Source of the DNA: Prochlorococcaceae cyanobacterium jk18x22bins.40 | GTDB lineage: Bacteria; Cyanobacteriota; Cyanobacteriia; PCC-6307; Cyanobiaceae | Reading direction: 5' to 3' | Assembly: GCA_022826155.1 (NCBI GenBank) | Contig: JAJDVL010000044.1 | Location: forward strand, 1 to 64,000 | Length of the DNA: 64,000 nucleotides | Part shown: positions 18,211-34,233 of the stretch, piece after piece | How the letters are laid out: every line of letters begins with the position of its first letter | How positions within the stretch are numbered: position 1 is the stretch's first letter | Position numbers and translations under genes: made by a program | Notes under the pieces: generated by a model | Seen by the model: only the letters and a program-made list of their open reading frames with translations | Told to the model about the DNA's origin: nothing | The model's database searches: none

Positions 18211-18250
18211 AACCAGATCCGCTCCAGGGGCGCCGCCAGCGCCTGGGGCC
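18202..18250. repeat. Left direct repeat of the accessory island
   Basis: About 49 bp, nearly identical to 32961-33012 and in the same orientation; an uninterrupted 30-bp stretch (18219-18248) is identical. Read on the minus strand it encodes PQALAAPLERIWFQ, matching PQALAAPLERVWSQ at the end of the M16 protease gene at the other border. It is thus a detached copy of that gene's 3' end, still joined to sipA as in an uninterrupted ancestor. Confidence 0.88.
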
Positions 18251-18744
18251 TAACCCAAGGGCTTCAAGCACGACCCTTGGGGATTGTAGACGTAGTCCGT
18301 GATGGTGCCGTCCTGGATTTTTTCAACGGCCTGGTCAATCACGGGGAGGGGAACCAGAAACCACTCCCGTGGGACCACGGCATTGCCAAAACGATCCTTC
18401 ACTTCAATGGTAAGCTGTGCAGGCTTGAAAACGCGATGGATGAGGGTTTCAAGCTTTTTGCTGTTGATGTTGTAAAGATCGTAAGTGGCGACAATTTCCA
18501 CCGCTGCCATGAGAAACGTGGGATCAAGCTGTGGATTGCCGATACGTTGTTCCACCTTGCCGTTGGTTACGCCGATTTTATGGATAAGATCACGATTTTT
18601 TATCACACTTGGCAATTTGGAGCAACTGCGTAAAATGTAAATTATGCCACTGGCTTCGTCTCCTTCTTCCCTATAATCCGCAAAAAGTGGACCTTGAATT
18701 GCCTTCATGATACGTCTACTGGTATCATCCTTGTTCCGAGGCAT
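18250..18744 (-). CDS. GIY-YIG-like nuclease domain protein
   Basis: A protein of about 164 residues with GIIYILRSCS followed by a gap and HKIGVTNGKVEQRIGNP, then YDLYNINSKKLETLIHRVF and REWFLVPL. This is the layout of GIY-YIG proteins of the T5orf172 kind, in which the second motif reads KIG and a late Glu/Asn completes the site. The ATG at 18744 overlaps the end of the helicase gene in another frame by 20 bp; an ATG at 18708 is an alternative. It is the last gene before the left island border. Confidence 0.65.
   Translation of the reverse strand: MPRNKDDTSRRIMKAIQGPLFADYREEGDEASGIIYILRSCSKLPSVIKNRDLIHKIGVTNGKVEQRIGNPQLDPTFLMAAVEIVATYDLYNINSKKLETLIHRVFKPAQLTIEVKDRFGNAVVPREWFLVPLPVIDQAVEKIQDGTITDYVYNPQGSCLKPLG
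18254..18281. repeat. Inverted repeat at the left island border
   Basis: Perfect 8-bp arms CCCAAGGG (18254-18261) and CCCTTGGG (18274-18281) separated by 12 bp, immediately inside the left direct repeat and within the last codons of the GIY-YIG gene. It could act as a stem-loop at the end of the minus-strand transcript (there is no T-run) or be part of the integration site. Confidence 0.6.
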
Positions 18745-19936
18745 CGGGTTCGGCAATCAGATTGGTGAAGCGGGCGCTGGTCTTGCCTGGCGCATCTCGG
18801 GTGACGCGGCCAATAATCTGCACAATCTCCGTCAAGCTGGAGCGATAGCCCACGGTCAGGGCGTGTTCGCACCAAATCCAGTCGAAACCCTCCTTGGCCA
18901 TGCCCAGGGCAATAATCACGTCCACGTGGTCCCGGTTGGTCTTTTGGGCAGGGGTTTTGAGCGCTGCGGAGACCTTGTCCCGCCGGGCAGGATCATCATC
19001 CACCAGGTCGGCAATGCGCAGCAGCCGTCCCGTGGATGTTCGCACAAGCTGGAAACCCGTGACGGGATCGGCCCCTTGCCATTCCCCCAGTTCCTCGATG
19101 ATGTGTTCCACCTCCCTGATCTTGTCCTTCGTGCTTTCCCGTGAATTCACGGACGGGATGTGGATGATGGTCTTCTCGTTGGGGTCCAGCACCTTCAGGA
19201 TGGTGTCGGCGTAGGCGCCTGTGTAGAAGAAATAACCGATGTCAAGCCTTTTCAGATATTGATAGCCGTTCAGTTGTTCGTAGTAGGTATAGGTGACGGT
19301 CTCGAACCTTGCCTCATCGTGGGGCATGAGCACGGGCTCGGTGTCGCCGCGGAAGTAGGATCCCGTCATGGCGGTAATATGCGCCTGATCCCGTGCCATC
19401 AGCGCAGCCAATTGGGCGCCGAGCCTGTTGTCGGGATTGGCGGAGACATGGTGAAACTCATCCACGGCGATGAGTCGATGATCAAAGGCCTCCACGCCAA
19501 AGGCCTCAATGGCGTTGCGGAACGTGGCGTGGGGGCACACCAGCACCCGATCCCGACTCTTCAGGAACGCGCCCACAGCCTCCACCTTGCTGCCTTCGCT
19601 GCCTGGCGCGTTGCAGAGGTTCCATCGCGGCTGAACCGTCCAGTCGGCCCAGAAGCCGGACCTTGACAGGGGCTCATCGGCAAAGCTGGCGCCGATGGAT
19701 CGTTCAGGCACGGTGATGATGGCTTGCCGCAGCCCCTGGTTGTGCAGCTTGTCCAGGGCGATGAACATGAGCGCCCGGCTCTTGCCCGAGGCGGGTGGGG
19801 ACTTGATGAGCAAGTACTGCTCCCCCCGCTTCCCGTAGGCCCGTTCCTGCATGGGACGCATTCCCAGTTCATTGGCCCTGGTGGAGCTGCCGTTCCGGGC
19901 CGTGGTGAGCGAGACGGAAGGAACGAATCGGCTCAT
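18725..19936 (-). CDS. Superfamily 2 (DEAD/DEAH, ResIII-type) helicase, C-terminally short
   Basis: A 403-residue ATPase with Walker A SPPASGKSRALMFIAL (residues about 45-60), motif II VDEFHHVSANPD, motif III-like ITAMTGSYFRGD and the C-terminal lobe ending in IVQIIGRVTRDAPGK. These are the motifs of type III/DISARM-style SF2 helicases acting on DNA or RNA. The start ATG (19936) follows an in-frame TTG. The frame stops soon after motif VI at NLIAEPDASEQG, where I would expect relatives to continue, so it looks truncated and runs into the GIY-YIG frame. Probable operon with that gene. Confidence 0.78.
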   Translation of the reverse strand: MSRFVPSVSLTTARNGSSTRANELGMRPMQERAYGKRGEQYLLIKSPPASGKSRALMFIALDKLHNQGLRQAIITVPERSIGASFADEPLSRSGFWADWTVQPRWNLCNAPGSEGSKVEAVGAFLKSRDRVLVCPHATFRNAIEAFGVEAFDHRLIAVDEFHHVSANPDNRLGAQLAALMARDQAHITAMTGSYFRGDTEPVLMPHDEARFETVTYTYYEQLNGYQYLKRLDIGYFFYTGAYADTILKVLDPNEKTIIHIPSVNSRESTKDKIREVEHIIEELGEWQGADPVTGFQLVRTSTGRLLRIADLVDDDPARRDKVSAALKTPAQKTNRDHVDVIIALGMAKEGFDWIWCEHALTVGYRSSLTEIVQIIGRVTRDAPGKTSARFTNLIAEPDASEQG

Positions 19937-19939
19937 CCG

Positions 19940-20155
19940 AAACCCTGTCAATGCTGAGGTGATGGCAGCCTACCACCGGGCCGGGCTTCCCATGAAGGGG
20001 CTTGCAATGAAAACCCGGTCAAAAAGTCATGGTGCGTCAGAAGCCCCATCAATACTTGCATGTTGCTGCTTGTTCCGCCGATGCAGGCCCCCAGGAGTGC
20101 TGGGAATGAAAACCCGGTTAAAACTTTTGCGCTCATGCCCAGAACGGCACATAGC
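19940..20155. repeat. Left cluster of ~100-bp repeats beside the Schlafen-like gene
   Basis: Two units begin with TGAAAACCCGG at 20008 and 20107, period 99 bp; a shortened unit precedes them from about 19940. They match the cluster at 21679-21925. The last unit runs into the final codons of the 20133-21605 gene (its stop codon lies in the repeat); the first covers the region just upstream of the helicase start. Short hairpin-forming segments (CCC...GGGG) recur in each unit. Confidence 0.7.
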
Positions 20156-21605
20156 CCGTACGGGGGTGGGTGGGGTCTGCCGGGCGGATCAACCCTGCTT
20201 CCAGTGTCTTCCGAATAATAGAGGACACTTGGGAGGCGTTTTTCGCATCAATCCCGAAACGCTCACGTAGCGTCGCATTCTTCATTTGTTGACCGCTGAC
20301 ATATTTCAGGGCTGCGTGCTGATAGCAAGCCCTTATGCGCTCCTCCAGCGTCATATCTCCAAAGCTGCGAGGTGCAAACAAAATGACACGAACTGCTTCT
20401 CCCTCCTCTCTAAAATCCGGTGGTGGGAGTTGGTGGATCTCTACCTCGTCAACCACGTTGTCGATACCGGTGCCCCCTTCTTCGCAAAGCCCCATACGAC
20501 GCATAAGAGAGGCCAGGGCTTCATTCCGTGAACGGGGCACTGAATCCAGAAATCGCTCCGGGTTCACCAACGGCTTTCCTGGGTTGGTGATCTCCAAGCG
20601 GTCACTGAACATCTCGATGGAAGGCCCTGCACCCGTAATGGTCATGTTCTGGTGGATCAAGGCATTGGCAATCAGCTCCCGCAAGGCAATAGATGGATAC
20701 AGTGGCTGATCTTTGCGAAAAGCTTTCTCAATCAGTTCATTACGGGGAATCAGCGCATCGATATAATCCATCAATCCTTGAAAGCCGTTGGCATAGCCCT
20801 TCTGCTGATCCTGACGATGGGTCACTGTGTCAGCACGGCTCAAGCCGTCATAGACAACAAAGCGCACGGCTTTGCGGGCTATGGAAGACCCGAATTTACT
20901 CAGATTCTTGGCAAACAGAATTGCTCCAAGATTGGTGATATTCCACTGGTTGCCCACATCCTTCTGGATCAGGTTGTCTGAAACCAGTTTCTCGAAAATG
21001 CCTTGCCGATTATCTGGCAAGGGTTGTCTGGTGAGATCAAAATAACTCGCATAGTCCAGCAATGATAAAACGTCATCACCAGACAGGAATTGTGCAGCAA
21101 CTCCACTTTCCCAGATATAGGGTTGTAGCTTTCTCCACAAGGCGCGTTGCCACTCCGGGTGATCCGATAAGCGCGGCGTTGCGCTGCCAATCCGTACATA
21201 TGCCGTGCGCTCAAACTCCACTGGACTGTTGGCTGCTGCCGGAATACTCAACAGGACCAACCGCTGGCCGTGATGCTCCACCGGTTTAAAATCAAAGGTG
21301 ATGCCGGGGGAGAGTTGCCGCACCAGCCAAAACTCAAGTGGCTGGTTGCCAACTTTCTGTATGGAGGGCTCAAAGCTTGTGCCAACAATTGCATGGTCGC
21401 TATCCCTGATTCCCCACAGCCCATAGGCAAAATCCCGATCCGCCAACCGTGCAGCATTGGCAAGGGCAGAGATCAACTTGTCGACCATCTGGGGGCCAGC
21501 CTTGTTCTCCTTGAATTCAACCCATGACGTTTCTGCAGGCAGGGCACACAAATCGTCAATCAGGGCGCGCACCCGCTCGGCGTTCCCCAGAAGATCAGGT
21601 GTCAT
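20133..21605 (-). CDS. Schlafen/AlbA_2-type ATP-binding protein
   Basis: A 490-residue protein with an N-terminal AlbA_2 domain (about 20-150; TSWVEFKENKAG, ISALANAARLADRDFAYGLWGI, AYVRIGSATPRL), a middle helical region and a HATPase_c_4-like C-terminal part (YPSIALRELIANALIHQN, IEMFSDRLEITNPG, EEGGTGIDNV) ending with a winged helix. Such proteins are often annotated as RecG-like or transcriptional regulators; AlbA_2/Schlafen domains bind or cut nucleic acid. Its role here is unproven. It sits between two repeat clusters and upstream of the helicase on the same strand. Confidence 0.82.
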   Translation of the reverse strand: MTPDLLGNAERVRALIDDLCALPAETSWVEFKENKAGPQMVDKLISALANAARLADRDFAYGLWGIRDSDHAIVGTSFEPSIQKVGNQPLEFWLVRQLSPGITFDFKPVEHHGQRLVLLSIPAAANSPVEFERTAYVRIGSATPRLSDHPEWQRALWRKLQPYIWESGVAAQFLSGDDVLSLLDYASYFDLTRQPLPDNRQGIFEKLVSDNLIQKDVGNQWNITNLGAILFAKNLSKFGSSIARKAVRFVVYDGLSRADTVTHRQDQQKGYANGFQGLMDYIDALIPRNELIEKAFRKDQPLYPSIALRELIANALIHQNMTITGAGPSIEMFSDRLEITNPGKPLVNPERFLDSVPRSRNEALASLMRRMGLCEEGGTGIDNVVDEVEIHQLPPPDFREEGEAVRVILFAPRSFGDMTLEERIRACYQHAALKYVSGQQMKNATLRERFGIDAKNASQVSSIIRKTLEAGLIRPADPTHPRTGYVPFWA

Positions 21606-21678
21606 CCACGATCCCCCTGAAGCGTGGGTGATCCGCCTTGCTCGGCAGCCTGGAGCGCCGGGCCGCTGTTGCCACCTG

Positions 21679-21925
21679 TCAAAACCCGATCAAAAAACCA
21701 CACCATGCCAGAAACCGCGGCAGCGCTTGGATTATGGCACCTTACCACCGGGCTTGGCCCCCATGGAGGGGATTGCAATCAAAACCCCATCAAAAAATCA
21801 CACCGTGCCAGAAACCGCGTCAGTACTTGAGTTGTGGGGGCTTACCATCGGGTCAGACCTCCATAAAGGGCCTTCCGATCAAAACCCGATCAAAACTTCC
21901 ACCCCCATGCTCAGAACGGGATCAA
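21679..21925. repeat. Right cluster of 100-bp tandem repeats
   Basis: Units begin with TCAAAACCC at 21679, 21779 and 21879, exactly 100 bp apart; the third is partial. The first 50 bp of units 1 and 2 differ at about seven positions, the second halves less closely match. Unit 3 carries AACTT...CATGCTCAGAACGGGATC, resembling the last codons of the Schlafen-like gene in the left cluster. The region is non-coding; frames crossing it shift at each unit. Confidence 0.78.
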
Positions 21926-22012
21926 CCCCGTGGGAGGGGCACATTTCGGATGTGGATGGCGCGGGCCGAGGGCCGAGGGCAGCCCGCGCTGGTGATCGTA
22001 GATGGTGCAACG

Positions 22013-22055
22013 GGTGTGTACACACCGCTGGCTTGACATCATGGGGGGATGGGGG
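22013..22055 (+). promoter_or_regulatory. Palindrome and possible promoter of the ATPase gene
   Basis: A perfect 14-bp palindrome GGTGTGTACACACC (22013-22026) lies 6 bp before TTGACA (22033-22038), a consensus -35 box. Seventeen bp further is TTAGCC, a poor -10. A dyad GGGGTTAGCCTGACCCC overlaps it. This could be a repressor-controlled promoter for the gene starting at 22128. The palindrome is seen; the control is inferred. Confidence 0.45.
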
Positions 22056-22127
22056 TTAGCCTGACCCCATGAGAGCGCAACACAGCCCTATGGCAACGCA
22101 ACACCAGCCTCAGCAGGAGCAGCAGCC

Positions 22128-23333
22128 ATGATTGAGGCAGTTCACGTTGAAAACTTCAAAGCACTCAAAAGCATTGACCTGACAGGGCTGCCGCAACTGG
22201 CAGTGTTTGTGGGAAAGAACGGGGTTGGCAAAACCAGCTTGTTTCGGATTTTCTCATTTCTGAAAAGCTGTTTGTCAGAAAACGTTCGCCTGGCATTACA
22301 ACACGAAGGCGGCTTTAACGGATTCAAGGACGTGATTACTCGTGGCGTTGACGAGTCGAAGAGTATCGTAATTCAACTGAAATTTTACTTGATCATAGCA
22401 GGTAAAAAGCGTTTGGTAACCTATCATTTGGAAATTGGTTTGGAGGGCAAGAAGCCTGTGGTGCGTCGCGAGATATTACGCTATAAGCGAGCTTCCCGTG
22501 GTGGTGCGCCCTTTCACTTTATTGACTTTTCCAACGGCAAAGGAGTTGCGGTCAGCAATGAAGAAGACTTTAGCAAACCTGATATAGAGCTCACCAGGGA
22601 AGAGCAGGCGGTTGATCCAGACGTGCTGGCCATTAGCAGTCTCGGACAACTCAAACGTTTCAAGGCGGCAAAAGCGTTTCGCGAACTGATAGAAAACTGG
22701 CATATCTCGGATTTTCACATTAACGAAGCACGAGGCAAGAAGGATCAAGACTTGGGCGCTCATCTTTCTCGTTCAGGCGATAATCTCCCTTCGGTTGCCT
22801 TACGGATGAAAGAAGACCACCCCGAGATTTTTGAAACGGTATTGCAGAAAGTACGGGAAAGGGTGCCCGGCATCTCTGATATTGAAGCCAAAACCAGCGA
22901 GGATGGCAGTCTTCTGATTCGTTATGCCGATAGTGCTTTTAAGGATCCTTTTTTTGATTTCAATGTTTCCGATGGTACGATAAAGATGTTTGCCTATCTG
23001 CTATTGCTGCACGACCCCAAACCACACAAGGTTCTCTGTGTAGAAGAGCCTGAAAACCAGTTGTATCCCGAGTTGATGACCATACTGGCGGAAGAGTTTC
23101 AAGAGTATGCCAGCAAAGGTGGGCAGGTCTTTGTTTCTACCCATTCGCCGCAATTTCTGAATGCCATACCATTGGAGAGCTTATTCTTAATTGAGAAAGA
23201 TCAAGGCATTTCCAAAATTATGCCTTTTATCGCAGATCCACTCGTGTGCGGCCAGATTGAGGCGGGAGATAAGGCAGGCTATCTATGGGAACAGGGAATG
23301 TTTGAAGGGTTCAGTCGGAGGGTAGACAGATGA
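22128..23333 (+). CDS. OLD-like AAA ATPase (AAA_21)
   Basis: A 401-residue ABC/SMC-type ATPase. It opens IEAVHVENFKALKSIDL and has Walker A FVGKNGVGKTSLFRIF, signature-like FNVSDGTIKMFAYLLLL, Walker B VLCVEEPENQLYP and the H-loop QVFVSTHSPQFLNAI. These are features of AAA_21/OLD-family ATPases of phage-defence pairs. It is on the plus strand, unlike the other island genes, and its stop overlaps by 4 bp the start of a broken DUF4276-like gene. The sequence is less GC-rich than the backbone, as expected for acquired DNA. Confidence 0.85.
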   Translation: MIEAVHVENFKALKSIDLTGLPQLAVFVGKNGVGKTSLFRIFSFLKSCLSENVRLALQHEGGFNGFKDVITRGVDESKSIVIQLKFYLIIAGKKRLVTYHLEIGLEGKKPVVRREILRYKRASRGGAPFHFIDFSNGKGVAVSNEEDFSKPDIELTREEQAVDPDVLAISSLGQLKRFKAAKAFRELIENWHISDFHINEARGKKDQDLGAHLSRSGDNLPSVALRMKEDHPEIFETVLQKVRERVPGISDIEAKTSEDGSLLIRYADSAFKDPFFDFNVSDGTIKMFAYLLLLHDPKPHKVLCVEEPENQLYPELMTILAEEFQEYASKGGQVFVSTHSPQFLNAIPLESLFLIEKDQGISKIMPFIADPLVCGQIEAGDKAGYLWEQGMFEGFSRRVDR

Positions 23334-23900
23334 TCGTACTTCTTACTGAAGAACAATCCATGACGGAATGCTTAAGAGTTATCATTCTCCAACTGTGGCC
23401 TGATTCCACGGATGGTGTAGACTGGTTCGTCTTGTCATTTCAAGGCAAGAATCACTTGTAAAAAGTCAATTCCCAAAAAAATGAAAGGATGGAAGAATTA
23501 CGGGAATTCCCATTTCATCATTCTTCGAGATAATGATGGTGGTGATTGCATTGCAATAAAACGAGAATTACACAATATATCATATCAACATAGCGAATCT
23601 TTTCACGTGCGAATTGTCTGTCAGGAACTGGAGAGCTGACTACTGGGTGATTTAGAGGCAATCAGACAAGCATATCCTCAAAAGAAAATTCAAAACAAAG
23701 CAAAGTTTCGTAATCCGGACAACTTGGGAAATGCTTCGCAAGAACTCGAACGCTTGATTAATACCAGGGCCAAAGTTCAGCGAGCAGAAAGAATCAGTCA
23801 GCATTTTGATTTGACAAAAAACAAGTCTGAAAGTTTTAATGTTTTCATCAGAACATTGAAGCAGTTAATTCGTCAAGAACAATCCAGACCCAAAGAGTAA
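23330..23900 (+). pseudogene. Broken DUF4276/TOPRIM-like nuclease partner of the ATPase
   Basis: Starts with ATG at 23330 inside the ATPase stop (ATGA). The first frame reads MIVLLTEEQSMTECLRVIIL (TOPRIM-like Glu start) up to FQGKNHL, then TAA at 23459. Shifting frame by one base restores KMKGWKNYGNSHFIILRDND and GDCIAI (the Asp-x-Asp of TOPRIM), through CQELES, where TGA at 23635-23637 stands where a Trp is expected (QELESW-LLGDLEAI). The frame then runs to TAA at 23900. One frameshift near 23455-23465 plus one nonsense codon make it non-functional as read. DUF4276 proteins are usual second genes of such ATPases. Confidence 0.78.
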
Positions 23901-23904
23901 TCAC

Positions 23905-24010
23905 CAACCTTGGCGTGATGACTTCCCAGACCAATGTTGGACGTGACCACCACTTTAAGCTATCGAAACTCGTGGGCTGCAAGAGGTCATCAATCGAGTG
24001 GGGCCAAAGA
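23905..24010. repeat. Duplicated fic-downstream segment, copy 1
   Basis: This stretch after the intact fic gene resembles 25795-25915, which lies after the decayed fic copy; both share GTGGGCTGCAAGAGGT-like and GTGGGGCCAA(A/G)GAC blocks in the same order. In the second copy it contains the start codon of the NTF2-like gene. It shows that fic and its downstream flank were duplicated as a unit. Confidence 0.65.
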
Positions 24011-24032
24011 CTTGGCAGGTGTATGGTCACCA

Positions 24033-25136
24033 CTACCGGGCTTCACTCTCCCCAGTCACCTCCATGAACAGTCGGACCAGATTCACGTTGATGTAGTAGT
24101 TGCTGGTGCCGATACGGTGCTTCTGAACGAATCCATGCTCTGCCAGTTGCTCCAGATACCGGGACGCCGTTTGTCGTGCTTGAAGATTCAGGTCTTTTTG
24201 GACGTATGCAATTCGTGTGTAGGGATGCCGGAAGAGATTGTTGAGCAGATCCTGGCTGTAGAGCTTGGGAAGTTCGGCTCTCATGCGGTGCTTGACCGAT
24301 GCCATCTGGCGGTGGATGCCGTGAACCAGTTGCAGCGTCACTGCGGGGGTCTCAGCAACGGCATTGAGCATGAAGATGATCCAGTCCTGCCAGTGGCCAG
24401 TGGCCCGCACCGCTTGCAGGAGTCGGTAGTACTGCGCTTTATTGCGTGTGATGTGGCGGGACAGGTAGAGGATGGGGATGTCCAGAAGTCCGGAGCGGAC
24501 CAGGTAGAGCACGTTCAGGATGCGCCCGATGCGTCCGTTGCCGTCAGAGAAGGGGTGAATGCTTTCAAAGCGATGGTGGATGAGCGCCATTTTGATCAGC
24601 GGATCAAGGTCACACTGGCTGTCGTCGTTGATAAAGTGCTCAAGCGCGCTCATCTGGTCAACGATCACGCCGGCATCCTGTGGCGGTGTAAAGACCGTCT
24701 CGCCGGTGCTCTCGTTTTTTAGCACCGTGCCGGGGATCTTACGGAATCCGTCGCTTCTCCCTTTGAGCAGGCGATAGAGCTCAATGAGCGTGTTGTTGGT
24801 GATCAGCCCGGTGGAGTGGAGCCGCTCAAAACCCAACTTGACGGCGTCCCGGTAACGCGCCACCTCCTTGGCCGCAGCAGACTGGGGACTATCCGGGAAC
24901 AGATCGGCTTGGAAAAGCTCGTCCTGGGTGGTAACGATGTTTTCAATCTCCGAAGAGACCTTTGCCTCCTGCAGGGCGAGGGTGTCAATCAGGATGCCCT
25001 GGTTGGGAATGCTGCGGGCCTGTCCCTTGAGGGTGCCCAAGGCCGGACTGGCGCGGTTGAGAGCCTTGAGCACGGGCACCGTCTCCAGGTGAGCGGTAGG
25101 CGGGAAGCTGGGGATGGGGTCGCTGGGATGCACCAC
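24033..25136 (-). CDS. fic: Fic family AMP-transferase (class II inhibitory motif, C-terminal winged helix)
   Basis: A 367-residue protein from GTG with a Fic_N domain, inhibitory helix motif SSEIEN at 61-66 (S-x-x-x-E-N), Fic core motif HPFSDGNGRIGR at 194-205 and a C-terminal winged helix (about 285-355; YVQKDLNLQARQTASRYLEQL). Fic enzymes transfer AMP from ATP to target hydroxyls, with the Glu of the inhibitory motif limiting activity. The intact motif suggests an autoinhibited enzyme. The wHTH domain fits binding to the triple operator upstream. Two further decayed fic copies lie at 25.9-26.1 and 32.8-32.9 kb. Confidence 0.92.
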   Translation of the reverse strand: MVHPSDPIPSFPPTAHLETVPVLKALNRASPALGTLKGQARSIPNQGILIDTLALQEAKVSSEIENIVTTQDELFQADLFPDSPQSAAAKEVARYRDAVKLGFERLHSTGLITNNTLIELYRLLKGRSDGFRKIPGTVLKNESTGETVFTPPQDAGVIVDQMSALEHFINDDSQCDLDPLIKMALIHHRFESIHPFSDGNGRIGRILNVLYLVRSGLLDIPILYLSRHITRNKAQYYRLLQAVRATGHWQDWIIFMLNAVAETPAVTLQLVHGIHRQMASVKHRMRAELPKLYSQDLLNNLFRHPYTRIAYVQKDLNLQARQTASRYLEQLAEHGFVQKHRIGTSNYYINVNLVRLFMEVTGESEAR

Positions 25137-25148
25137 AAGAGAGCTGGT

Positions 25149-25198
25149 GTGTTAGAGAAACACGGTTTTTCCTAACATACGGCGGCCTCTATGTTAGG
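25149..25198 (-). promoter_or_regulatory. Triple ATGTTAGG-type operator upstream of fic
   Basis: Three 8-bp elements, GTGTTAGA (25149), CCTAACAT (25171, inverted) and ATGTTAGG (25191), lie 12-62 bp before the fic start, spaced 22 and 20 bp, two helical turns apart. The same three elements with identical spacing occur at 26129-26178 before the decayed fic copy. They probably bind the Fic winged-helix domain or another repressor. Confidence 0.6.
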
Positions 25199-25256
25199 AC
25201 TTGTGCCCCAAGCTGCCATCTGTGGCGATGCAGGCGCTGGCAGGCCAAGATCCAGT

Positions 25257-25805
25257 TCAGGGTGCCGTCTCCAACTCACTGGCTTGCAGTAGAGGCGTTA
25301 CAGAAGTGTTTTGGGTGGCAATGATTTTCCAACTGTTGTCCCTCTGGCGCACAAGGACGTGTTTCATCCGGGTGTGCAGGGGTGGGGTGGGGCCGCTTGT
25401 AGAGGTTGTAATGGCTGTTTTGAGCCAAGGCGGCAAGGCTTTGTAGTTGGTCAGTGTTTGATCAAGATCAGCAATGGCCACGTTGTCCGTGATGAATTTC
25501 AAGCTGCGCAACTCTTGCCGCAACGTAGATCCTTGAAAAACTGTTGCGAAAAGATCAGCATGGCGTTGGCGATTGGCCCAGCGATCCAGATAGAGTGCTC
25601 CAAAAATATTCATAAACTCGGAATCAGGCAGGTAAGCCATCGCCCAGAGGGCTGCATCGCCCGTATTCCAAGCCTCACTCATCTTATCCACCACCAGAGT
25701 ACGAATCACAGCCCGATCCCGCGTCCAATCGGGAACAGAATAGGCCGGTAAGCTGCAAGAGAGAATCGTCACCAGAGCAGCCGCTGTGGCCACCAGCCTT
25801 GGCAT
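25257..25805 (-). CDS. Secreted NTF2-like (SgcJ/DUF4440-type) protein
   Basis: From the ATG at 25805 the product has a signal peptide (MPRLVATAAALVTILSCSLPAYS, cut near AYS-VP) and a mature domain of about 155 residues with RAVIRTLVVDKMSEAWNTGD, SEFMNIFGALYLDRWANRQ and LVRQRDNSWKIIATQNT, the cone-like NTF2 fold of SgcJ/EcaC proteins. Function unknown; probably periplasmic. Its start codon and leader lie in sequence duplicated downstream of both fic copies, so it may have been captured by the duplication. Bases and codons resemble the backbone. Confidence 0.72.
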   Translation of the reverse strand: MPRLVATAAALVTILSCSLPAYSVPDWTRDRAVIRTLVVDKMSEAWNTGDAALWAMAYLPDSEFMNIFGALYLDRWANRQRHADLFATVFQGSTLRQELRSLKFITDNVAIADLDQTLTNYKALPPWLKTAITTSTSGPTPPLHTRMKHVLVRQRDNSWKIIATQNTSVTPLLQASELETAP

Positions 25806-25915
25806 GACGGCTTCCCGGACCAATGCCGGATGTGACCAGATCCGCCCTAAGCTGCCGGAACTCGTGGGTTGCAAGAGGTTCATCAGTCGTGTGGGGCCAA
25901 GGACGTGGCAGGTGT
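25795..25915. repeat. Duplicated fic-downstream segment, copy 2
   Basis: Matches 23905-24010 in order and orientation. It lies between the decayed fic copy and the NTF2-like gene, and supplies the latter's first codons. Confidence 0.6.
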
Positions 25916-25925
25916 AGCTTAGCCG

Positions 25926-26113
25926 CTGCTCTGCCAGTTGCTCCAGATACGGGGACGCCGTTTACCGTGCTTGAAAGTTGATGATCCAGTCCTGCCACTG
26001 GCCAGTGGCCCGCACCGCTTGCAGGAGATGGCTCAATGGGCGCGTTGTTGGTTCAGCCCCGTCTCCAGCTCAGCGGCAGGTGGAAAGCGGGAGATGGGAT
26101 CGCTGGGATGCAC
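25926..26113 (-). pseudogene. Decayed fic copy with internal deletions
   Basis: Three collinear pieces of fic remain. 26055-26113 keeps the GTG start and reads HPSDPISRFPPAAELET (compare HPSDPIPSFPPTAHLET). 25979-26027 corresponds to 24373-24422 around the TGHWQDWIIFML segment. 25926-25975 corresponds to 24138-24183 of the winged helix. Everything between, including the HPFxDGNGR active site, is gone. The upstream operator is intact. Confidence 0.82.
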
Positions 26114-26128
26114 CGCAAGGGGACTGGT

Positions 26129-26178
26129 ATGTTAGGGAAACACGGTTTTTCCTAACGTAAGGCGGCCCCTATGTTAGA
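26129..26178 (-). promoter_or_regulatory. Second copy of the triple operator
   Basis: ATGTTAGG (26129), CCTAACGT (26151) and ATGTTAGA (26171) repeat the arrangement before the intact fic with the same 22- and 20-bp spacing. It sits before the decayed fic copy, so it could now act only as a decoy or control of a chance transcript. Confidence 0.55.
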
Positions 26179-26522
26179 GCTTGTGCCCAAGCTGCCATCC
26201 GTAGCGGTGCAGGCACTGGCCGGCCAAGATCCAAGCCCAACTGGGATCAGGAGGAGAACCGCCAGATTCGCCCCATTGCCGGCCAACCGGGCCATCCTGG
26301 TGCGGTGGTTGCAGCACTTGGCGCCCCCAGTCATCTCATCCCATCCATGGCTGATGGACTTCATGCTGGGCGCCATCCACAGCATGGTTGACGTTGCGGG
26401 CAAGACTGGCCACGGCCGCAGAAGCCCCGGTCACGTCCGGGATATGGGGAGGCTGAGTTGCTAGAGATGCCAAACCAATGGAAACTACATACCAAAGTAG
26501 CAACGGGGCCGTGGGTGGGGTC
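26179..26522. other. No gene seen
   Basis: The first 60 bp continue the duplicated fic-upstream sequence (compare 25200-25256). The rest has short frames on both strands (one of 83 codons, minus) that I cannot relate to a protein. It ends in one arm of the repeat flanking the PIN module. Confidence 0.5.
26449..26481. repeat. Left 33-bp direct repeat flanking the PIN toxin module
   Basis: GAGGCTGAGTTGC...AACCAATGG; matches 27407-27439 at 30 of 33 positions in the same orientation. The toxin-antitoxin pair lies exactly between the two copies. Confidence 0.75.
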
Positions 26523-27002
26523 TCATGTGCAAGGCCTAAAGCCGTCCAGATAGGACTTGATTCTGTCAAGGGTCCAGACAGGGACTCCAGTTCCCCAGAA
26601 GTCCTTGTCATTTGAGAGGATGGCACAGTTTGGTTCCCTGAATCCTAGTAACACAGCGATCAGCTCCCAGTCGTTTGAGGAGTTCTTCTTGTGAGAAGCT
26701 CTCTTCGGCAGCCTGGCCTGGGCAGACAGTCGAAGATGGTTCTGTTCATCGTAGACTACGACTTGAATCAGGTCAATGTATTTCTTGCGTTCTTGTAACC
26801 GCTCTTGCAACATCCTTGCATTCCTGTCTCGACTGATTTCTGGTAAGTGTTTTTCGGCTTCTTGCCAGATTGACATAGTCGAATAAAGATCTATATTCCT
26901 GTCTGACAAAAGTCTCAAAAAATGATTTGGTCCCTGGTTAAAAGTACTGCGAATAAGTATGTTCGCATCAACAAGCAAGGAGGTGGGAAAGAGTTTAATC
27001 AT
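26523..27002 (-). CDS. PIN-domain toxin-like ribonuclease
   Basis: From ATG 27002 the product (159 residues) starts MIKLFPTSLLVDANILIRS, with the first PIN acidic residue in VDANIL, a mid Glu (WQEAEKHLPEI) and the late acidic cluster SNDWELIAVLLG and LSNDKDFWGTG. This is the order of the PIN active site of VapC-like RNases. Its start overlaps the end of the upstream small gene by 8 bp, as in toxin-antitoxin pairs with antitoxin first. Confidence 0.78.
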   Translation of the reverse strand: MIKLFPTSLLVDANILIRSTFNQGPNHFLRLLSDRNIDLYSTMSIWQEAEKHLPEISRDRNARMLQERLQERKKYIDLIQVVVYDEQNHLRLSAQARLPKRASHKKNSSNDWELIAVLLGFREPNCAILSNDKDFWGTGVPVWTLDRIKSYLDGFRPCT

Positions 27003-27237
27003 TGCTTTCCCTTCCCAAGTAGGCCTTAAGTCTGCGTATTGTCTCGTCAAGAGTATCCGAGCCTTCGTCCCAGTTGCCAGGTAGGCCGTATTTGTCCCTC
27101 ATTTCCTGCATGAAGAGATCCGGCCCCCTGCCCAGTGCCCGCCTTGCCTCCCAGTCAATCGGAGGGGTCAGCTCTTTAAGGGTTGCGGCGGGAGGATCGT
27201 CAAGATTGAGGACGATGACAGGTCTTGGGTCAGGCAT
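26995..27237 (-). CDS. Putative antitoxin of the PIN module
   Basis: An 80-residue acidic protein from the ATG at 27237 (MPDPRPVIVLNLDD), overlapping the PIN gene by 8 bp. The C-terminal half is helical with ETIRRLKAYLG at the end. No DNA-binding domain is obvious. The assignment rests on size and position; a longer open frame upstream is not convincing. Confidence 0.6.
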   Translation of the reverse strand: MPDPRPVIVLNLDDPPAATLKELTPPIDWEARRALGRGPDLFMQEMRDKYGLPGNWDEGSDTLDETIRRLKAYLGRESND

Positions 27238-27406
27238 GATGGAGCAGGGTGGAAACTCTTGGAGTCTAGCACATGACAGCATGAAAAGGGAATGACATGC
27301 CAAAGTAACAGTCCTCCAGGGAACTGGGATTTCAGGCTTGACCGAGAACTTGGTAGTGACACCGAGTTGAGACGGTCCTTCTGTCAGGATGCTGACAGTA
27401 CAGGAA

Positions 27407-27439
27407 GAGGCTGAGTTGCCAGGGATGCCCAACCAATGG
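27407..27439. repeat. Right 33-bp direct repeat flanking the PIN toxin module
   Basis: Partner of 26449-26481; three mismatches in 33. The pair could have formed by duplication on insertion of the module or mark its excision by recombination. Confidence 0.75.
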
Positions 27440-27635
27440 GTGCATGTGGCGCAGTGACGCCCTCAGACGTCTTCTGGGACTATATTTCTGCAGGATGTTA
27501 CCTCACCATGAGAAAGTCAGTCCTGGAGAGGGATTACCTAGACCAGCAAATTTTTTCCGATGGGGGGAGAGCGATTTTTCGTAGCGCCCTAATCCGAGAC
27601 TTGTAACTAAAAATTGGATGCCGTTTTGAGCTTTA

Positions 27636-29951
27636 TCACTCTCCTATGTAAACACTATTATTACGAAAAGCGTCTCTGAAGCGATTTAATATTGTATAGC
27701 GTTCACTATTTGGATTACTTACAGCAAGCAATTCCTCAACACGCTGTATCAGTTTTTCGATGTCAAAAAATCTTTCCAGTACATTTATTTGAACAGAATA
27801 CGATCTAGTAGGTACTGAATTACTACCGATAAGGCTTACAGATGTTCCTTCCTGTATAAATATTCTTGCAAACATCTCAACTGCAGTATCTTCATTTAAT
27901 TGTTCCATGCACCAAGATTTTACTTCTTTCTCTTCTCCTTCAGAATCATCTAATAATTCCCAAGAATATAAAATTTCAGGCTTTCTAATTTTAAATAAGC
28001 TGTCATTTCTTGCTGCAGATCGAACTCTCGTAAGAAAGACTTGTTGCAGTTTTTTCATGTCAGGCTTCGTCATAAGCCACATGTCTTCAGATCTTGGAGA
28101 TTGATCTTGTGGCGGATAATAATTAAAATACTCTTGACGTACTAAAATCGCTATCAATCCCAGACTTGCATGACTGATAGCTTGAGAGATAATTTCTGAC
28201 CTTTTATCTAAACTAGTAATATATAAAAGGAGCTTTTCTGATAGAGAACATATTCTATGGCTATTGTCTATCCAGAACATAGAACTATCTGACTGATCTG
28301 ACTCCACATCAATCGAGTCATGTACGGAGAAAAGTCCCGATAAGAAAGCCTTAGCATTCTCAATTGGAATACTCCTGGCATGTGCTCTCAATTCTTCTAA
28401 GAGTATGCTCGCACAAGTTCCATTTCCATTGCTTTTTTTACTTGCTTCTAAGATTGCATTTTTCACATAATTTTCATCTCCACTATTTCTAACAATTGTA
28501 TTCACTTCTTCAATGCTAATTGTCTCTGGAGAAAGTGAAAAACGGAAGTAAGTATCAAAATGTTCAGGAGAACAGACACGCCGTTGGCGCTTCCAGTTAT
28601 CACGATCAGAAGACGAAGACGACGTGCCACCCCCTTCCCATACACTGCCAAGTGGCGGAAATAGAAGAGATAAGGCTCGTTTCCTCTCTTCACGTTTTTC
28701 ATTAAGTAAACTACCGAGAAAAATTTCTTTGTAACGGGACGCCCTCTTGCTCTTATTCTCATTAATAGAACTCGTGTCATAAAAATCTGTGTCACGCCCT
28801 GTCAATTTCTGCTTATTGGACTTCAGAATAGCATGAAGACCTGGCTGCTTCACTCGAAGGGTTTCCAACGCCAGAAAATCCGTTGGCTCCACTTCACCGG
28901 CAACTGCTGGCCAAGACACCTTGAGTGCATTCATAATGCGGATAATGTCACGAGGCGACTGGATTTGAGGTGCCACTACATTATCAAAGAGACTCCTAAA
29001 GTGGCGATACTCTGACGCCGCATATTCTCTCCAGTATTCTGACTCTTGAGATTCTTTCCAGAGTTCTTCTACAGACTTGACAAAGGCATTCTGAAGGCTT
29101 GAACCCGATGGATATGGAATATCAAACCCAGCTTGAACAATCTTTTCCAAGTAGTTAGGCACTTCAGATGAATAGCGATTGGAGACGATTTCTTCAGCAA
29201 CTTCACGATCATAAGCAAGAAGATAAGTGACTTTCGGCAGTCTTCCCACTGATTTAATCAGACGAAAGATCAACAGTGTCTCATCTTTTGAAAGTCGGTC
29301 AATGTCATCAATGATCATCAGGTAGCGTTTATCTTTCTTTTTAAGGTCTTGTGATATTCTATCATAGAGCTTCTCAACGGTCTCTTCTTGTTCGATTAGT
29401 TTTCTCACAAGATTCATACCATTGGATACTGCGTTCCCTGGAACTGATACAACGGAACTCACAGCTTTACCAATCAATGATGCTGAACTGCTCAATATTG
29501 ATGCAAGCTGAGAAATAGCTGCTCTTGCCTTTCCAAGACCTGATTCATTCAATGCGCTGTAAAGCTGGTGAAAAAACTCAATCATCAGTGCTTCCTCACC
29601 TCTGAACCACCAGCACTTGAAATCAAGAATTTCTAGAGACACGTTAGAGACGTTAATTGTGTTACCATTGGATTGCCTAGAGCGTCTCTTTGGAGCAAGA
29701 GATTTAAGCCAACTGGGGGCTCTCTTGGGAAATTCAAAGCTATTCGGTGGTTTTATTTTCTCCTCCAGATAATATTTCACAAGATTGATGACGCTACTTT
29801 TCCCAGATCCCCAAGGCCCATGAATTGCCATCACTGTTCCTTCAGAACCGTCGTTCTTGATAATGGATTGAGCAATCGCTTCCGCAAATGGGCTGAAGCC
29901 GAACCGGTCTTCACCTGGCCGCTTAATGGGCTTGTCGTTGAACGAGTTCAT
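27636..29951 (-). CDS. KAP-family P-loop NTPase
   Basis: A 771-residue protein with Walker A HGPWGSGKSSVINLV (45-58) and Walker B YLMIIDDIDRLSKDE (211-225) typical of KAP NTPases, which are linked to membranes and phage defence. Between them is a moderately hydrophobic Ser/Ala-rich stretch (147-180), where KAP proteins carry membrane segments. The C-terminal 450 residues match nothing I know. The ATG overlaps the methyltransferase stop (ATGA) and is served by GGAGGTGA in that gene's last codons, so the two are translationally coupled. The gene is visibly AT-rich against the backbone, pointing to transfer. Confidence 0.85.
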   Translation of the reverse strand: MNSFNDKPIKRPGEDRFGFSPFAEAIAQSIIKNDGSEGTVMAIHGPWGSGKSSVINLVKYYLEEKIKPPNSFEFPKRAPSWLKSLAPKRRSRQSNGNTINVSNVSLEILDFKCWWFRGEEALMIEFFHQLYSALNESGLGKARAAISQLASILSSSASLIGKAVSSVVSVPGNAVSNGMNLVRKLIEQEETVEKLYDRISQDLKKKDKRYLMIIDDIDRLSKDETLLIFRLIKSVGRLPKVTYLLAYDREVAEEIVSNRYSSEVPNYLEKIVQAGFDIPYPSGSSLQNAFVKSVEELWKESQESEYWREYAASEYRHFRSLFDNVVAPQIQSPRDIIRIMNALKVSWPAVAGEVEPTDFLALETLRVKQPGLHAILKSNKQKLTGRDTDFYDTSSINENKSKRASRYKEIFLGSLLNEKREERKRALSLLFPPLGSVWEGGGTSSSSSDRDNWKRQRRVCSPEHFDTYFRFSLSPETISIEEVNTIVRNSGDENYVKNAILEASKKSNGNGTCASILLEELRAHARSIPIENAKAFLSGLFSVHDSIDVESDQSDSSMFWIDNSHRICSLSEKLLLYITSLDKRSEIISQAISHASLGLIAILVRQEYFNYYPPQDQSPRSEDMWLMTKPDMKKLQQVFLTRVRSAARNDSLFKIRKPEILYSWELLDDSEGEEKEVKSWCMEQLNEDTAVEMFARIFIQEGTSVSLIGSNSVPTRSYSVQINVLERFFDIEKLIQRVEELLAVSNPNSERYTILNRFRDAFRNNSVYIGE

Positions 29952-32752
29952 AGGTTCACCTCCGGTTTGGCTGTGGCTGTGGGCATGGCGCCTATGGCAT
30001 CCCCACCCGCCTCCTTCCCAGTCATCTTAACATACAACCCAAACAACTTCTCCAGCCGCTCTGTATCATTTTTGAAGCGGCGGCCAATGACGATGCGCTC
30101 CAGGCACTCGTCATTGCGATCATGGGCATGGCGAAGATTTTCGGGCATCTTTTGGGGATGATAGAGCTCGGCGATGGTGGCGGGGAAATGGGCTTCACGG
30201 GCCAGGAGGATGTCTTCAGCGCAGCGGGTGAGGTCTTCCCGGTTTTTCTCGGTGAATGGGGGGAGGGGGAAAGTGTTCCAGCCCATGGTGTTGGAATATC
30301 TGAAGTCGGTTTTCAGCTTGCCGCAGACTGTGGCGATCCAGATCAAGTGAAGACGGGAGGCAATTAGCGCCATAGTCCAAAGGGGGGCGTCGTAGAGGGC
30401 GAAATTTGAGTCACCAATGATCGTTTTATTGTCAGCAATGTCAATCGGAAGAGAATCCCTATTTTCACTGCTGACACGTGCAACGACTAGAGAACTCCTT
30501 TCTGTCGTGCTTTGTATCTGTCGAAAACGATGAGGAAAAGCGGCAGCAGGGCGAGTTTCCGCAGCTTTACTAGCCGCTCTCATTTTGGCAACTTCGGAAA
30601 TCCGCCGCGCAACCTCAGGTATTTTCTCTGCTCGTTCGCGTTCATCATCCTCTATCCAAAAGCAGTATCTAAGTTGACCCCGAATCAACTCTTGGGCACC
30701 AAGAAACCTTTTGATGTAGGGAGCTGCTTCTGGATGCTTGTCCAGTAATTTTGCCCGTTCATCAGCAGTCATAAAAAGATGCCCGCCATCAGTGGGCTTG
30801 TTGCCCCATTCCATCAGTCCACGCTCATCTTTGGGGCGTGCCAATGGAGAAACAATAATATCTCCACCAGATATGAGATATGGGTTTACGTTGCTTGCTT
30901 CTTTGGCAACTGTCTTGCTCTCTGGCCCCAATGTGAACAGAAAACGCAATGGCTTTGGATTTTTGGAGATCGCCACAATCACAACCGTCACCCCAGCATT
31001 GTGGCTGGCCAGGTTGGCCCATTTGAAGCTGGTGTGGGCAAAAGCGATTTTATGGCCCGTCTTGAAGATCAGGGGCCAGAGGATGGGAACTTGCTGCCCT
31101 TGACAAATGGAATTGGTGGCCACAAAGGCGGCTGTGGCGCTGGCGTGCTGGCCGTAGTCTGCCGCTTTGATGAACCAGCCCGCCACGTAGTCAAGGGATT
31201 TCCAGTTCTTGGCGCGGCCTTGGAAGAGGTGTTTCAGGTCTGCTTTCTGCTCCGGGCTCTGCCAGGTTGACCCCAAATACGGCGGATTCCCGCAAATGTA
31301 GGTCTCCCCACCCTCGTTTTCAAAATCAATCTCCGGTTGCTCCAGGGGCGTGTCAAACAGGTCGTTGGCATGGTACTTCACGTTCACCCCTGTCCCTGTG
31401 GGTGGGCAGATATCTAGCCAATCCAGCCGCAGGGCGTTGCCGCAGGTAATCCAGTTTTGCGCATTGAGGGGCAGGAAGTCCGCCAGGGCTTCTTTCTGGC
31501 CCCGGTAGAGTTCATCGCATTGATATTCAGCAATGATGAGCGCCAACCGGGCAATTTCGGCGGGGAAGTCCCGCAGTTCGATGCCCCGGAAGTTGGTGAG
31601 GGGGATGTCTGTAGGGCGGCCGGCTTCGCCGCGTTGTTTGTTGATTTCGGCCTCAATGGCGCGCATTGTCTTGTAGGCGATCACCAGAAAATTGCCCGAC
31701 CCGCAGGCGGGATCAAAGACCCTGATTCTGGCCATGCGGTTGCGCAGATTGAAGAGCTTACGGGGATTGCCCTTGGCTTGCTCCAGCTTCTCCCGTAGAT
31801 CGTCCAGAAACAGGGGATTGAGCACTTTCAGGATGTTGGGCACACTGGTGTAGTGCATCCCCAGTCTGCCCCGTTCTTCATCATCGGCCACCGCCTGGAT
31901 CATGGAGCCGAAAATATCGGGGTTGATCCGTTTCCAGTCCAGATGGCCGATGTGCAGCAGATAGGAGCGGGCAATCCGACTGAAACGGGGCACCTCTGCG
32001 CTGCCGGAAAACAGCCCGCCGTTCACGTAGGGGAAGCCGTTGGCCCAGCGGGGGATGCCCGCTGTTGCGCGATCCTCCGTTTTGGTGTTCATGGCGCGGA
32101 AACATTCACTGATCACCGCCTGGGTGTTGGTGTTGTCGCTCATCTGAGCGATGGTGGGGGTGAAGGCGGCAGTCATGAAGATGCCGGTATCTTCGGCAAA
32201 GAAGCAGAAGATCAGCCGCGCCATGAAGCGGTTCATGTCATGGCGCCGTGGGGGAGTGTCCCAGGTGGGGTTATCTTTGCGAAGCTCCAGATAAAGACGA
32301 TTCAGCCGCCCCGTCGCTTTGATATCAAAAGCGTTCTCGCTGATTTGCCGAACGGTGGTAATGCCCGCCAGCGGCAGGAAAATGCCAAAGTAGTCGGGGA
32401 GTTGGGGATAGGGGTGAATGATTAACGCATCACCTGTCAAGTCCTCCGCTTGAAACTCCTCGCCGTCGGTGGCAAGAATCAACTTTGCCTTGGCCTGCTT
32501 TGTGGCGCGGCTGTCCCTCAGCGCAGCCATGGTTGCCGTCGCCTGCCCCGGTGGGCACACTTTCATGTGGATGTTGTTGGCCTGGAGCACACCCCCTTCC
32601 AGGTCGGATCTATTGGACGCACCGGAGCGGAGGCGCTTGATGGTGGTGGGCTTGTTACCAAAGGCTTTCAGAAAGTCATAGGGGAACTCCTCCGCATCAA
32701 ACGGCTGTGCCGCCAGGTCCGCCAGAGCCTCTTCAATCTCGACCGGGTTCAT
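29948..32752 (-). CDS. MmeI-like class I DNA methyltransferase
   Basis: A 934-residue protein from ATG 32752 (GGGAAG upstream). Order: N-terminal region (1-150; FLPLAGITTVRQISENAFDI), helical spacer with GMHYTSVPNILKVLNPLF (299-316), SAM motif I FDPACGSGNFLV (346-357), catalytic motif IV GNPPYLG (488-494), then target recognition and C-terminal regions (LYDAPLWTMALI, DFRYSNTMGWNTFPLP). NPPY marks an N6-adenine (or N4-cytosine) enzyme. MmeI itself has an N-terminal nuclease; I see no clear (D/E)-x-K site in residues 1-130 here, so it may only modify. A 20-codon extension upstream is unlikely. Translationally coupled to the KAP gene. Confidence 0.88.
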   Translation of the reverse strand: MNPVEIEEALADLAAQPFDAEEFPYDFLKAFGNKPTTIKRLRSGASNRSDLEGGVLQANNIHMKVCPPGQATATMAALRDSRATKQAKAKLILATDGEEFQAEDLTGDALIIHPYPQLPDYFGIFLPLAGITTVRQISENAFDIKATGRLNRLYLELRKDNPTWDTPPRRHDMNRFMARLIFCFFAEDTGIFMTAAFTPTIAQMSDNTNTQAVISECFRAMNTKTEDRATAGIPRWANGFPYVNGGLFSGSAEVPRFSRIARSYLLHIGHLDWKRINPDIFGSMIQAVADDEERGRLGMHYTSVPNILKVLNPLFLDDLREKLEQAKGNPRKLFNLRNRMARIRVFDPACGSGNFLVIAYKTMRAIEAEINKQRGEAGRPTDIPLTNFRGIELRDFPAEIARLALIIAEYQCDELYRGQKEALADFLPLNAQNWITCGNALRLDWLDICPPTGTGVNVKYHANDLFDTPLEQPEIDFENEGGETYICGNPPYLGSTWQSPEQKADLKHLFQGRAKNWKSLDYVAGWFIKAADYGQHASATAAFVATNSICQGQQVPILWPLIFKTGHKIAFAHTSFKWANLASHNAGVTVVIVAISKNPKPLRFLFTLGPESKTVAKEASNVNPYLISGGDIIVSPLARPKDERGLMEWGNKPTDGGHLFMTADERAKLLDKHPEAAPYIKRFLGAQELIRGQLRYCFWIEDDERERAEKIPEVARRISEVAKMRAASKAAETRPAAAFPHRFRQIQSTTERSSLVVARVSSENRDSLPIDIADNKTIIGDSNFALYDAPLWTMALIASRLHLIWIATVCGKLKTDFRYSNTMGWNTFPLPPFTEKNREDLTRCAEDILLAREAHFPATIAELYHPQKMPENLRHAHDRNDECLERIVIGRRFKNDTERLEKLFGLYVKMTGKEAGGDAIGAMPTATAKPEVNL

Positions 32753-32795
32753 GGCTTCCCTGCTGGTTGGAGTGGACAGCTTGCCCACCATAGAA

Positions 32796-32925
32796 CTGGG
32801 TGTCAGCCCCATTCCCAGCCGCCTCCAGAAACAGGCGCACCAGATCCACGTTGATGTAATCGTTGCAGCCGCCGGTACGGTGTTTCTGGCGGAAGAGGGT
32901 TACCGCGTTGAGCATGAAAGGGATA
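32796..32925 (-). pseudogene. Third fic remnant, upstream of the methyltransferase
   Basis: On the minus strand the frame contains HRTGGCNDYINVDLVRLFLE, matching HRIGTSNYYINVNLVRLFME at the end of Fic, preceded directly by FMLNAVTLFRQ, matching FMLNAV of Fic about 70 residues earlier; the intervening part is deleted. It abuts the methyltransferase start and the right island border, suggesting a former fic-methyltransferase-KAP operon. Confidence 0.75.
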
Positions 32926-32955
32926 CAAGCCCCGTCCTTCAGGACGGCACAGGGT

Positions 32956-34233
32956 TCATGGTTGCCCCTGAGACCAGACCCGCTCCAGGGGCGCCGCCAG
33001 CGCCTGGGGGCCAACCACCGCCAGACGGGGTTGGCTGAGCCAACGGCGCGCCACCCGTCGACAGTCGGTCCCGTCCCGTTCCGCCAACCGGGTCAACTGC
33101 TGCTCCGCCGTATCCACGGCCATCCCATGCCCCCGCAGCAGGGCCAGCCGTTCCGCCACCTGGCCACTGGTCTGCAGGGCCGCCAACTCCTGCCCCTGCA
33201 GCTTGGTGTGGGCCAAGCGCAGGTCCTCGGGCTGAAGGGGCTGCTCCAGGAGGCGCTGCCACTCCGCCAACAACAGTTCCAGGGCCTTGACCGCCCGTGC
33301 CTTGCTGGTGGAGAGGTGAACAATAAACGGGGTGCTCTGCCGGCGCACAGGGAACAACACCCCCACCTCGTAGGCCAGACCGTGGGTTTCCCGGATCACC
33401 TGGGGCAACCGGGCGCTCATGCCAATGCTGAGGTGGTAGTACAGCAGCCGCAGAACGGCATGGTCCTGGTGGTTGAGCCCACAGGTGGAGGCCCCCAGGA
33501 GCACCACCACCTGCTCCGTGTCCTGGGGATGGAAGGCCATGGTGGCTGAACCACCGGGGAGGGCCGTGGGCAGCGCCACGGGACCGGAGCCATGGCTGGA
33601 GGCCATGGACTCCGCCAGAGCCGTCAGGTGGGCTGTGGTGTTTTGATCCAGATGGCCCGCTGCGGCAATGACCATGGCGCTGCTCCCCCAGCCTTGATGG
33701 GCCTGGTGCAACTGGCCGGGGGTCAGGGCCGCCACCTCTGCCGTCAAGCCCAGGGGAGGGTGGCCATAGCCCCCATGGCCGTAAAGCAGACGGCGCAGGT
33801 CCGCCAGGGCCAGTTGCAGGGGATCCTCCCGCTGCTGCGCCAACGCCTGCAGGGTGAGCTGCTGCTCCCGCCGCACCTCACGGGGCGCCAACCGTGGCGT
33901 CTGGACCATCTCCCGCAACCGCTCCAGCAGAGGCGCCGCATCCGCAGCCATGCACCCCAGACACAACACCACCGCATCTTCCCGGGCGCCCGCCGCAAAA
34001 CAGGCGCCGCGGGACTCCAACGCTTCCGCTAAGGCCACGGCGTCCTGGTGGATGGTGCCCCGCTGAACGGCGCTGGCCAACAGGTGGGCCTGTCCCCGTT
34101 GCCCCAAGGGGTCTGCGGCGCTGCCCCCGGCAATCCACCAGCACAGGGCCGTCACCCCCACGTGGTGCCGGTGCTGCGCCAGTAATTCTACCCGCTGATG
34201 ATGATGGTGCAGATCAAGACGCATGGGGAACAT
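32956..34233 (-). CDS. M16-family peptidase homologue lacking the zinc motif
   Basis: A 425-residue protein with the two-lobed M16 (insulinase/pitrilysin) fold: PLGQRGQAHLLASAVQRGT in the N-terminal lobe and LLYYHLSIGMSARLPQVIRETHGLAYEVG in the C-terminal lobe. The catalytic HxxEH is not present where expected (QRGQAHLLAS), so it is probably the inactive partner of a heterodimeric M16 protease; no active partner is in this window. Its last codons form the right direct repeat of the island and its tail (WSQGQP) has been replaced relative to the left copy (WFQATDAT). Confidence 0.82.
   Translation of the reverse strand: MFPMRLDLHHHHQRVELLAQHRHHVGVTALCWWIAGGSAADPLGQRGQAHLLASAVQRGTIHQDAVALAEALESRGACFAAGAREDAVVLCLGCMAADAAPLLERLREMVQTPRLAPREVRREQQLTLQALAQQREDPLQLALADLRRLLYGHGGYGHPPLGLTAEVAALTPGQLHQAHQGWGSSAMVIAAAGHLDQNTTAHLTALAESMASSHGSGPVALPTALPGGSATMAFHPQDTEQVVVLLGASTCGLNHQDHAVLRLLYYHLSIGMSARLPQVIRETHGLAYEVGVLFPVRRQSTPFIVHLSTSKARAVKALELLLAEWQRLLEQPLQPEDLRLAHTKLQGQELAALQTSGQVAERLALLRGHGMAVDTAEQQLTRLAERDGTDCRRVARRWLSQPRLAVVGPQALAAPLERVWSQGQP
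32961..33012. repeat. Right direct repeat of the accessory island
   Basis: Partner of 18202-18250. Lies in the 3' end of the M16 gene and even includes a degenerate copy of the sipA stop region (GTTGCC..TGA). Differences are two substitutions and small indels outside the 30-bp identical core. Confidence 0.88.

Follow-up and report, generated by a model that had tools for sequence, protein, structure and literature searches.

A MmeI-like methyltransferase and a PifA-like KAP NTPase as the probable 5' half of a damaged DnmA-YeeB-YeeC-type defence operon with cargo genes

The window, i.e. the whole stretch of 64,000 nucleotides from a sponge-symbiont cyanobacterium analysed here, carries on its minus strand a gene for an MmeI-like DNA methyltransferase, which is directly followed by a gene for a KAP P-loop NTPase and, further downstream, by several smaller genes, a truncated helicase gene and a nuclease fragment (Table 1). 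An earlier sequence-only reading had described the methyltransferase as a 934-aa protein with the motifs DPACGSGNF and NPPY, and gene and motifs were found accordingly. Its Pfam domains MmeI_N, hel, Mtase, TRD and C, in that order, form the full MmeI array. A longer version of this reading frame is open for 954 aa, but the start at 32752 matches the conserved first residues of the family. The same reading had reported that the KAP gene (KAP_NTPase, E=6e-48) overlaps the methyltransferase gene by ATGA and has its ribosome-binding site in the last methyltransferase codons. Both were recovered, and the Shine-Dalgarno sequence is GGAGGTGA at 29956-29963. The nearest named loci are those of a Synechococcus MAG and of 'Candidatus Synechococcus spongiarum' SH4; matching contigs place the two in the genus of the window.

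Table 1. Features of the island and its borders in the window
Feature	Position	Strand	Remarks
Left 50-bp direct repeat	18206-18255		bounds island; 92% to right copy
YeeC-type GIY-YIG nuclease fragment	18250-18756	-	catalytic domain kept; ~235 N-terminal residues lost
YeeB-type SF2 helicase, truncated	18725-19951	-	Walker A to motif VI kept; ~280 C-terminal residues lost
Deletion junction, 1,556 bp relative to strain G007 (L136 3111-4666)	18732-18734		from alignment with G007
SLFN_AlbA_2 / HATPase_c_4 protein	20133-21605	-	71% identical to cargo ATPase of Sulfitobacter dnmA-like loci
AAA_21 ATPase, PADLOC HEC-01B, cargo	22128-23333	+	opposite strand
Partner gene of HEC-01B ATPase	23330-23894	+	broken by frameshift and stop
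SoFic-type Fic protein, cargo	24033-25136	-	same family in this slot of several other genomes
PIN_2 domain protein, toxin-like cargo	26523-27050	-	PF10130, E=1.4e-15
PifA-like KAP P-loop NTPase, first cargo gene	27636-29951	-	771 aa; overlaps methyltransferase gene by ATGA
Methyltransferase/KAP stop/start overlap ATGA	29948-29951	-	4 bases
DnmA/MmeI-like N6-adenine DNA methyltransferase, nuclease motif lost	29948-32752	-	934 aa plus stop
M16 peptidase gene	32956-34233	-	right island border in its 3' end
Right 50-bp direct repeat	32967-33016		3' end of M16 peptidase gene

Within the same genus, true MmeI-like enzymes possess the nuclease site D-X9-EXK (DLFWPGVLLVEQK, IDLFWPGVLLVEQK). In an alignment of 74 family members, including the window protein, the corresponding columns read VLQ.NNIHI.V..G. 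The D and K of the motif are missing in all 74, and DPACGSGNF as well as NPPY/NPPF are retained in all 74. Judged from this alignment, the loss of the nuclease is a family-wide trait. The impression of the sequence-only reading that no nuclease motif is evident was thus right, and the profile search of the N-terminal region which it had proposed detected an MmeI_N domain in which the nuclease D and K are lost. The only close solved structure is that of MmeI itself (PDB 5hr4, 457 bits), a Type IIL/IIG restriction-modification enzyme. The window methyltransferase shares its domain array and is clearly homologous but, lacking D-X9-EXK in its N-terminal domain, is not self-sufficient as a restriction enzyme. 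A self-contained MmeI-type enzyme is therefore ruled out, and cutting must come from elsewhere.

Methyltransferase homologues with 39-75% identity occur on plasmids and in genomes, and downstream of them lie genes for a ~685-aa DEAD/DEAH helicase and then for a GIY-YIG nuclease (T5orf172/MUG113) of ~396 aa. Where the downstream sequence exceeds 7.5 kb, which holds for 56 family loci, both genes are present in 53. The rest of this operon lies within the window as well, 8-12 kb downstream, with neither gene at full length. The window helicase is 81% identical to the family helicase over residues 5-407 of 686 and is cut at about residue 408, and the nuclease fragment corresponds to residues 236-392 of the 396 residues of the family nuclease. 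The helicase has thus lost its C-terminal part and the nuclease its N-terminal part, and the lost stretches include many positions that are conserved elsewhere. Strain G007, of the same genus, possesses a full-length helicase gene and the GIY-YIG gene, from which the window differs by one single deletion, seen in an assembled draft genome, where an assembly error is also possible. Because of this deletion restriction was probably lost or crippled in this genome, and the locus appears to be partly decayed.

The genes from the methyltransferase to the GIY-YIG nuclease are located on a segment of 14.7 kb (18256-32966) between the two direct repeats. In six genomes of the same genus this site is empty, and the two flanks are contiguous with an overlap of about 40-50 bp, so that the segment represents one inserted island. 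No integrase was recognised within it. In the congener G008 (L160 8693-9323) the operon is present in another copy, of which little is left: on the 5' side of the same M16 gene, decayed pieces encode the N-terminal part of a GIY-YIG protein and the C-terminal part of a helicase. In the congener G004 (L156 7406-12193) the left flank of the window is missing at the M16 3' end and other sequence is found instead, hence insertions or rearrangements may have recurred at this site.

Across the family, genes other than KAP are found between the methyltransferase and the helicase. All three core genes are present at 67 loci; 46 of these show a gap of more than 250 bp at this joint, and 21 have little or no gap. 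The gap between helicase and nuclease never exceeds 33 bp, and cargo-sized gaps occur there in none of the 67 loci. According to Pfam and PADLOC, the genes in this slot belong mostly to known defence or toxin families, and several slot families are without any Pfam match. The identified genes are Fic/SoFic, RhuM, Abi_2, HEPN-like, DarT with a macro domain, AbiEii with DUF6088, SLFN_AlbA_2 ATPase, Mrr, YhcG, GmrSD-like, NucS-like, PD-(D/E)XK, a CoiA-like nuclease and Shedu. Mapped on the methyltransferase tree, a short-search tree whose deep branches are unsure, the cargo state changes 32 times over 62 labelled loci, and Fic, SLFN and RhuM each occur at separate places. The methyltransferase gene ends in ATGA in 42 of 83 family loci and in GTGA or TTGA in 10 more. 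The start codon in this overlap mostly belongs to the next gene, irrespective of what that gene encodes. The ATGA coupling is a generic trait of the family and is not specific for KAP.

In the window, the HEC-01B ATPase has an 89% identical copy which adjoins the helicase in strain G007. A small SgcJ/EcaC-like protein (TIGR02246; 25257-25883, minus strand) is also encoded in the cargo block and is not an obvious defence gene. Positions 32814-32888 match part of the Fic region (24051-24125, 81%), and positions 25927-26188 match two further parts (24136-24422 and 25076-25208, 85-98%); they appear to be remnants of further Fic copies, one of them just upstream of the methyltransferase gene. Tandem repeats of ~100 bp with a 25-nt core like TCAAAACCCGATCAAAA are located on both sides of the SLFN_AlbA_2 gene (21671-21895 and 20000-20123).

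PifA is a KAP NTPase of the F plasmid that acts in the exclusion of phage T7. It is by far the best defence profile for the window KAP (PADLOC PifA, 359 bits over residues 105-751; the runner-up reaches 54 bits), which combines a KAP P-loop domain with a PifA-type C-terminus and carries Walker A (GPWGSGKS) at 45 and Walker B (LMIIDDID) at 211. It differs from PifA in being coupled to a methyltransferase. A membrane role, as suggested by the sequence-only reading, finds no support in the protein: the best 19-residue hydropathy is 1.6, no clear transmembrane segment is present, and KAP as a membrane effector was dropped. The fixed pairing of both genes did not hold up either. In a census of the family loci the same KAP follows this methyltransferase only in the window genome and in the congener G005, where the KAP gene has an in-frame stop and runs into the contig end. 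A blastp search of the slot ORFs with KAP matched the congener only, and in other slots the large ORFs, from 550 aa upwards, resemble GmrSD or SLFN. As a slot gene, KAP is confined to this genus. Among 386 cyanobacterial genomes, two others encode a KAP at E<1e-40, with 28-29% identity. No methyltransferase was found beside those KAP relatives on plasmids that have a readable annotation.

Several features of the window are known from DnmA of Bacillus subtilis (YeeA), which is homologous to MmeI, lacks the nuclease motif and generates m6A at GACGAG (PMC9973331, PMC7261158). Downstream of dnmA follow a helicase and a T5orf172/GIY-YIG protein, and the cluster is conserved across bacteria (PMC9973331, PMC7261158). 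The window has the MmeI-like methyltransferase without nuclease motif, the SF2 helicase downstream on the same strand and the GIY-YIG gene after the helicase; order and strand are equal. It differs by the multi-gene cargo between methyltransferase and helicase and by the truncation of helicase and nuclease. The likeness is drawn from the published anatomy; in the B. subtilis control genome only the MmeI_N profile matched. With this anatomy, and with helicase and GIY-YIG genes in the same window, the proposal of an undescribed system made of just the two genes falls. No restriction of phage or transformation was seen for dnmA-yeeB-yeeC in B. subtilis (PMC9973331, PMC7261158), so that restriction by the core operon rests on Vibrio crassostreae, where homologues affect phage sensitivity according to a deletion phenotype cited in PMC9973331.

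Membership in other systems was considered as well. No Hma profile is among the PADLOC matches listed for the methyltransferase (best 25 of 36), KAP, the family helicase and the GIY-YIG nuclease, and membership in Hma (HmaA helicase, HmaB methylase, HmaC ATPase) was rejected. DISARM was also rejected, since its DrmMI matches are weak and partial. Hma and the DUF499 BREX-related systems (PMC12839542) resemble the locus in their helicase and methylase operon and in the HEC-01B gene of the cargo block, but the window operon has a GIY-YIG nuclease instead of a DUF499 ATPase. Auxiliary effectors have been reported for BREX (PMC12839542). Defence genes nested in other immune systems were described by Payne et al. 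2024 (doi 10.1101/2024.01.29.577857, as cited in PMC12629846). Examples are PrrC, which lies in loci of Type I R-M systems, and PifA, which is enriched in one P. aeruginosa hotspot. As far as the citation describes them, the embedded defences share with our locus small defence genes inside a host defence operon; here the host operon is of the DnmA-YeeB-YeeC type and has one fixed slot. In the literature searched, to which the preprint of Payne et al. 2024 itself did not belong, there was no published account of cargo between dnmA and yeeB. Both the DnmA-YeeB-YeeC operon and the embedding of defence genes are already known; new are the slot for cargo and the presence of KAP in it.

It is highly probable that the pair forms the 5' half of a DnmA-YeeB-YeeC-type operon on a defence island, with KAP as slot cargo and with a damaged cutting end. 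In an intact operon the MmeI-like protein would, by analogy with DnmA, read an asymmetric site and methylate an adenine of the host DNA. Since its own nuclease is dead, it would direct the SF2 helicase and the GIY-YIG nuclease on unmethylated DNA, a division of labour that would be similar to Type I systems. The gap between methyltransferase and helicase would serve as a slot whose cargo consists of defence genes that act alone or as a backup and in many cases are coupled in translation to the methyltransferase. KAP would then be a PifA-like phage-exclusion NTPase that is expressed together with the methyltransferase and probably responds to its own target rather than to the methylation mark. 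In the window genome the deletion would leave the methyltransferase, KAP and the other cargo. Some observations argue against this explanation: the cargo genes may travel with a mobile locus as passengers and not as functional partners, KAP of the congener is interrupted by the stop codon, and the B. subtilis operon showed no restriction. A closer functional tie to the core operon, in which the dnmA-yeeB junction is a dedicated slot and the embedded gene, here KAP, is co-translated with the methyltransferase and acts as a fail-safe that is freed or activated once a phage has blocked the core operon, seems unlikely to us.

Between the window genome and G005, KAP has a dN/dS of 0.28 and the methyltransferase one of 0.25, hence KAP was maintained as a protein during most of the time that separates the two genomes. 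Such purifying selection on two overlapping, co-translated genes, both intact in the window, agrees with a dedicated two-gene system, with the methyltransferase as the marker of self DNA and KAP as an effector that responds to the entry of unmethylated DNA; in G005, too, methyltransferase and KAP remain and a helicase was not found in the assembly. However, the relatives have a helicase and a nuclease, and the KAP pairing is confined to this genus, for which reasons such a two-gene system was rejected as the main explanation and appears very improbable. The identical overlap with unrelated genes, the broken KAP of G005 and the annotated KAP relatives without an adjoining methyltransferase also speak against it. 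From the interpretation of the sequence-only reading the lost nuclease site and a likely defence context stand, and KAP becomes one of many interchangeable slot genes. More room, although it is still the less likely view, is left for an orphan regulatory methyltransferase in a dead locus, of which only methylation is kept while KAP and the rest decay as passengers. This is the published view for DnmA of B. subtilis and would account for the truncated helicase and nuclease, the broken HEC-01B partner, the Fic remnants and the defective KAP of the congener. Against it, KAP of the window has its full length, intact Walker motifs and the dN/dS given above, and the reading frames of SLFN, Fic and PIN are open. 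We give hardly any credence to the opposite view, a fully active locus in which truncated helicase and GIY-YIG fragment still form a minimal cutting module. The helicase keeps all its motifs as far as motif VI and the GIY-YIG fragment its catalytic residues, and dN/dS of the truncated helicase is 0.15 relative to strain G007, but the missing parts contain conserved positions in both proteins, and the truncation may itself be an assembly error.

If the highly probable arrangement, a DnmA-YeeB-YeeC-type operon with cargo, is general, a widespread operon with a nuclease-dead MmeI-like methyltransferase would take up defence genes at exactly one joint. The slot could then serve as a search handle for new defence genes, and it offers a testable idea for why some DnmA loci resemble defunct restriction systems. 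On several plasmid copies of the operon (L031, L033, L034), VapC or HigA toxin-antitoxin genes are located just upstream of the methyltransferase gene, and some of them overlap its start.
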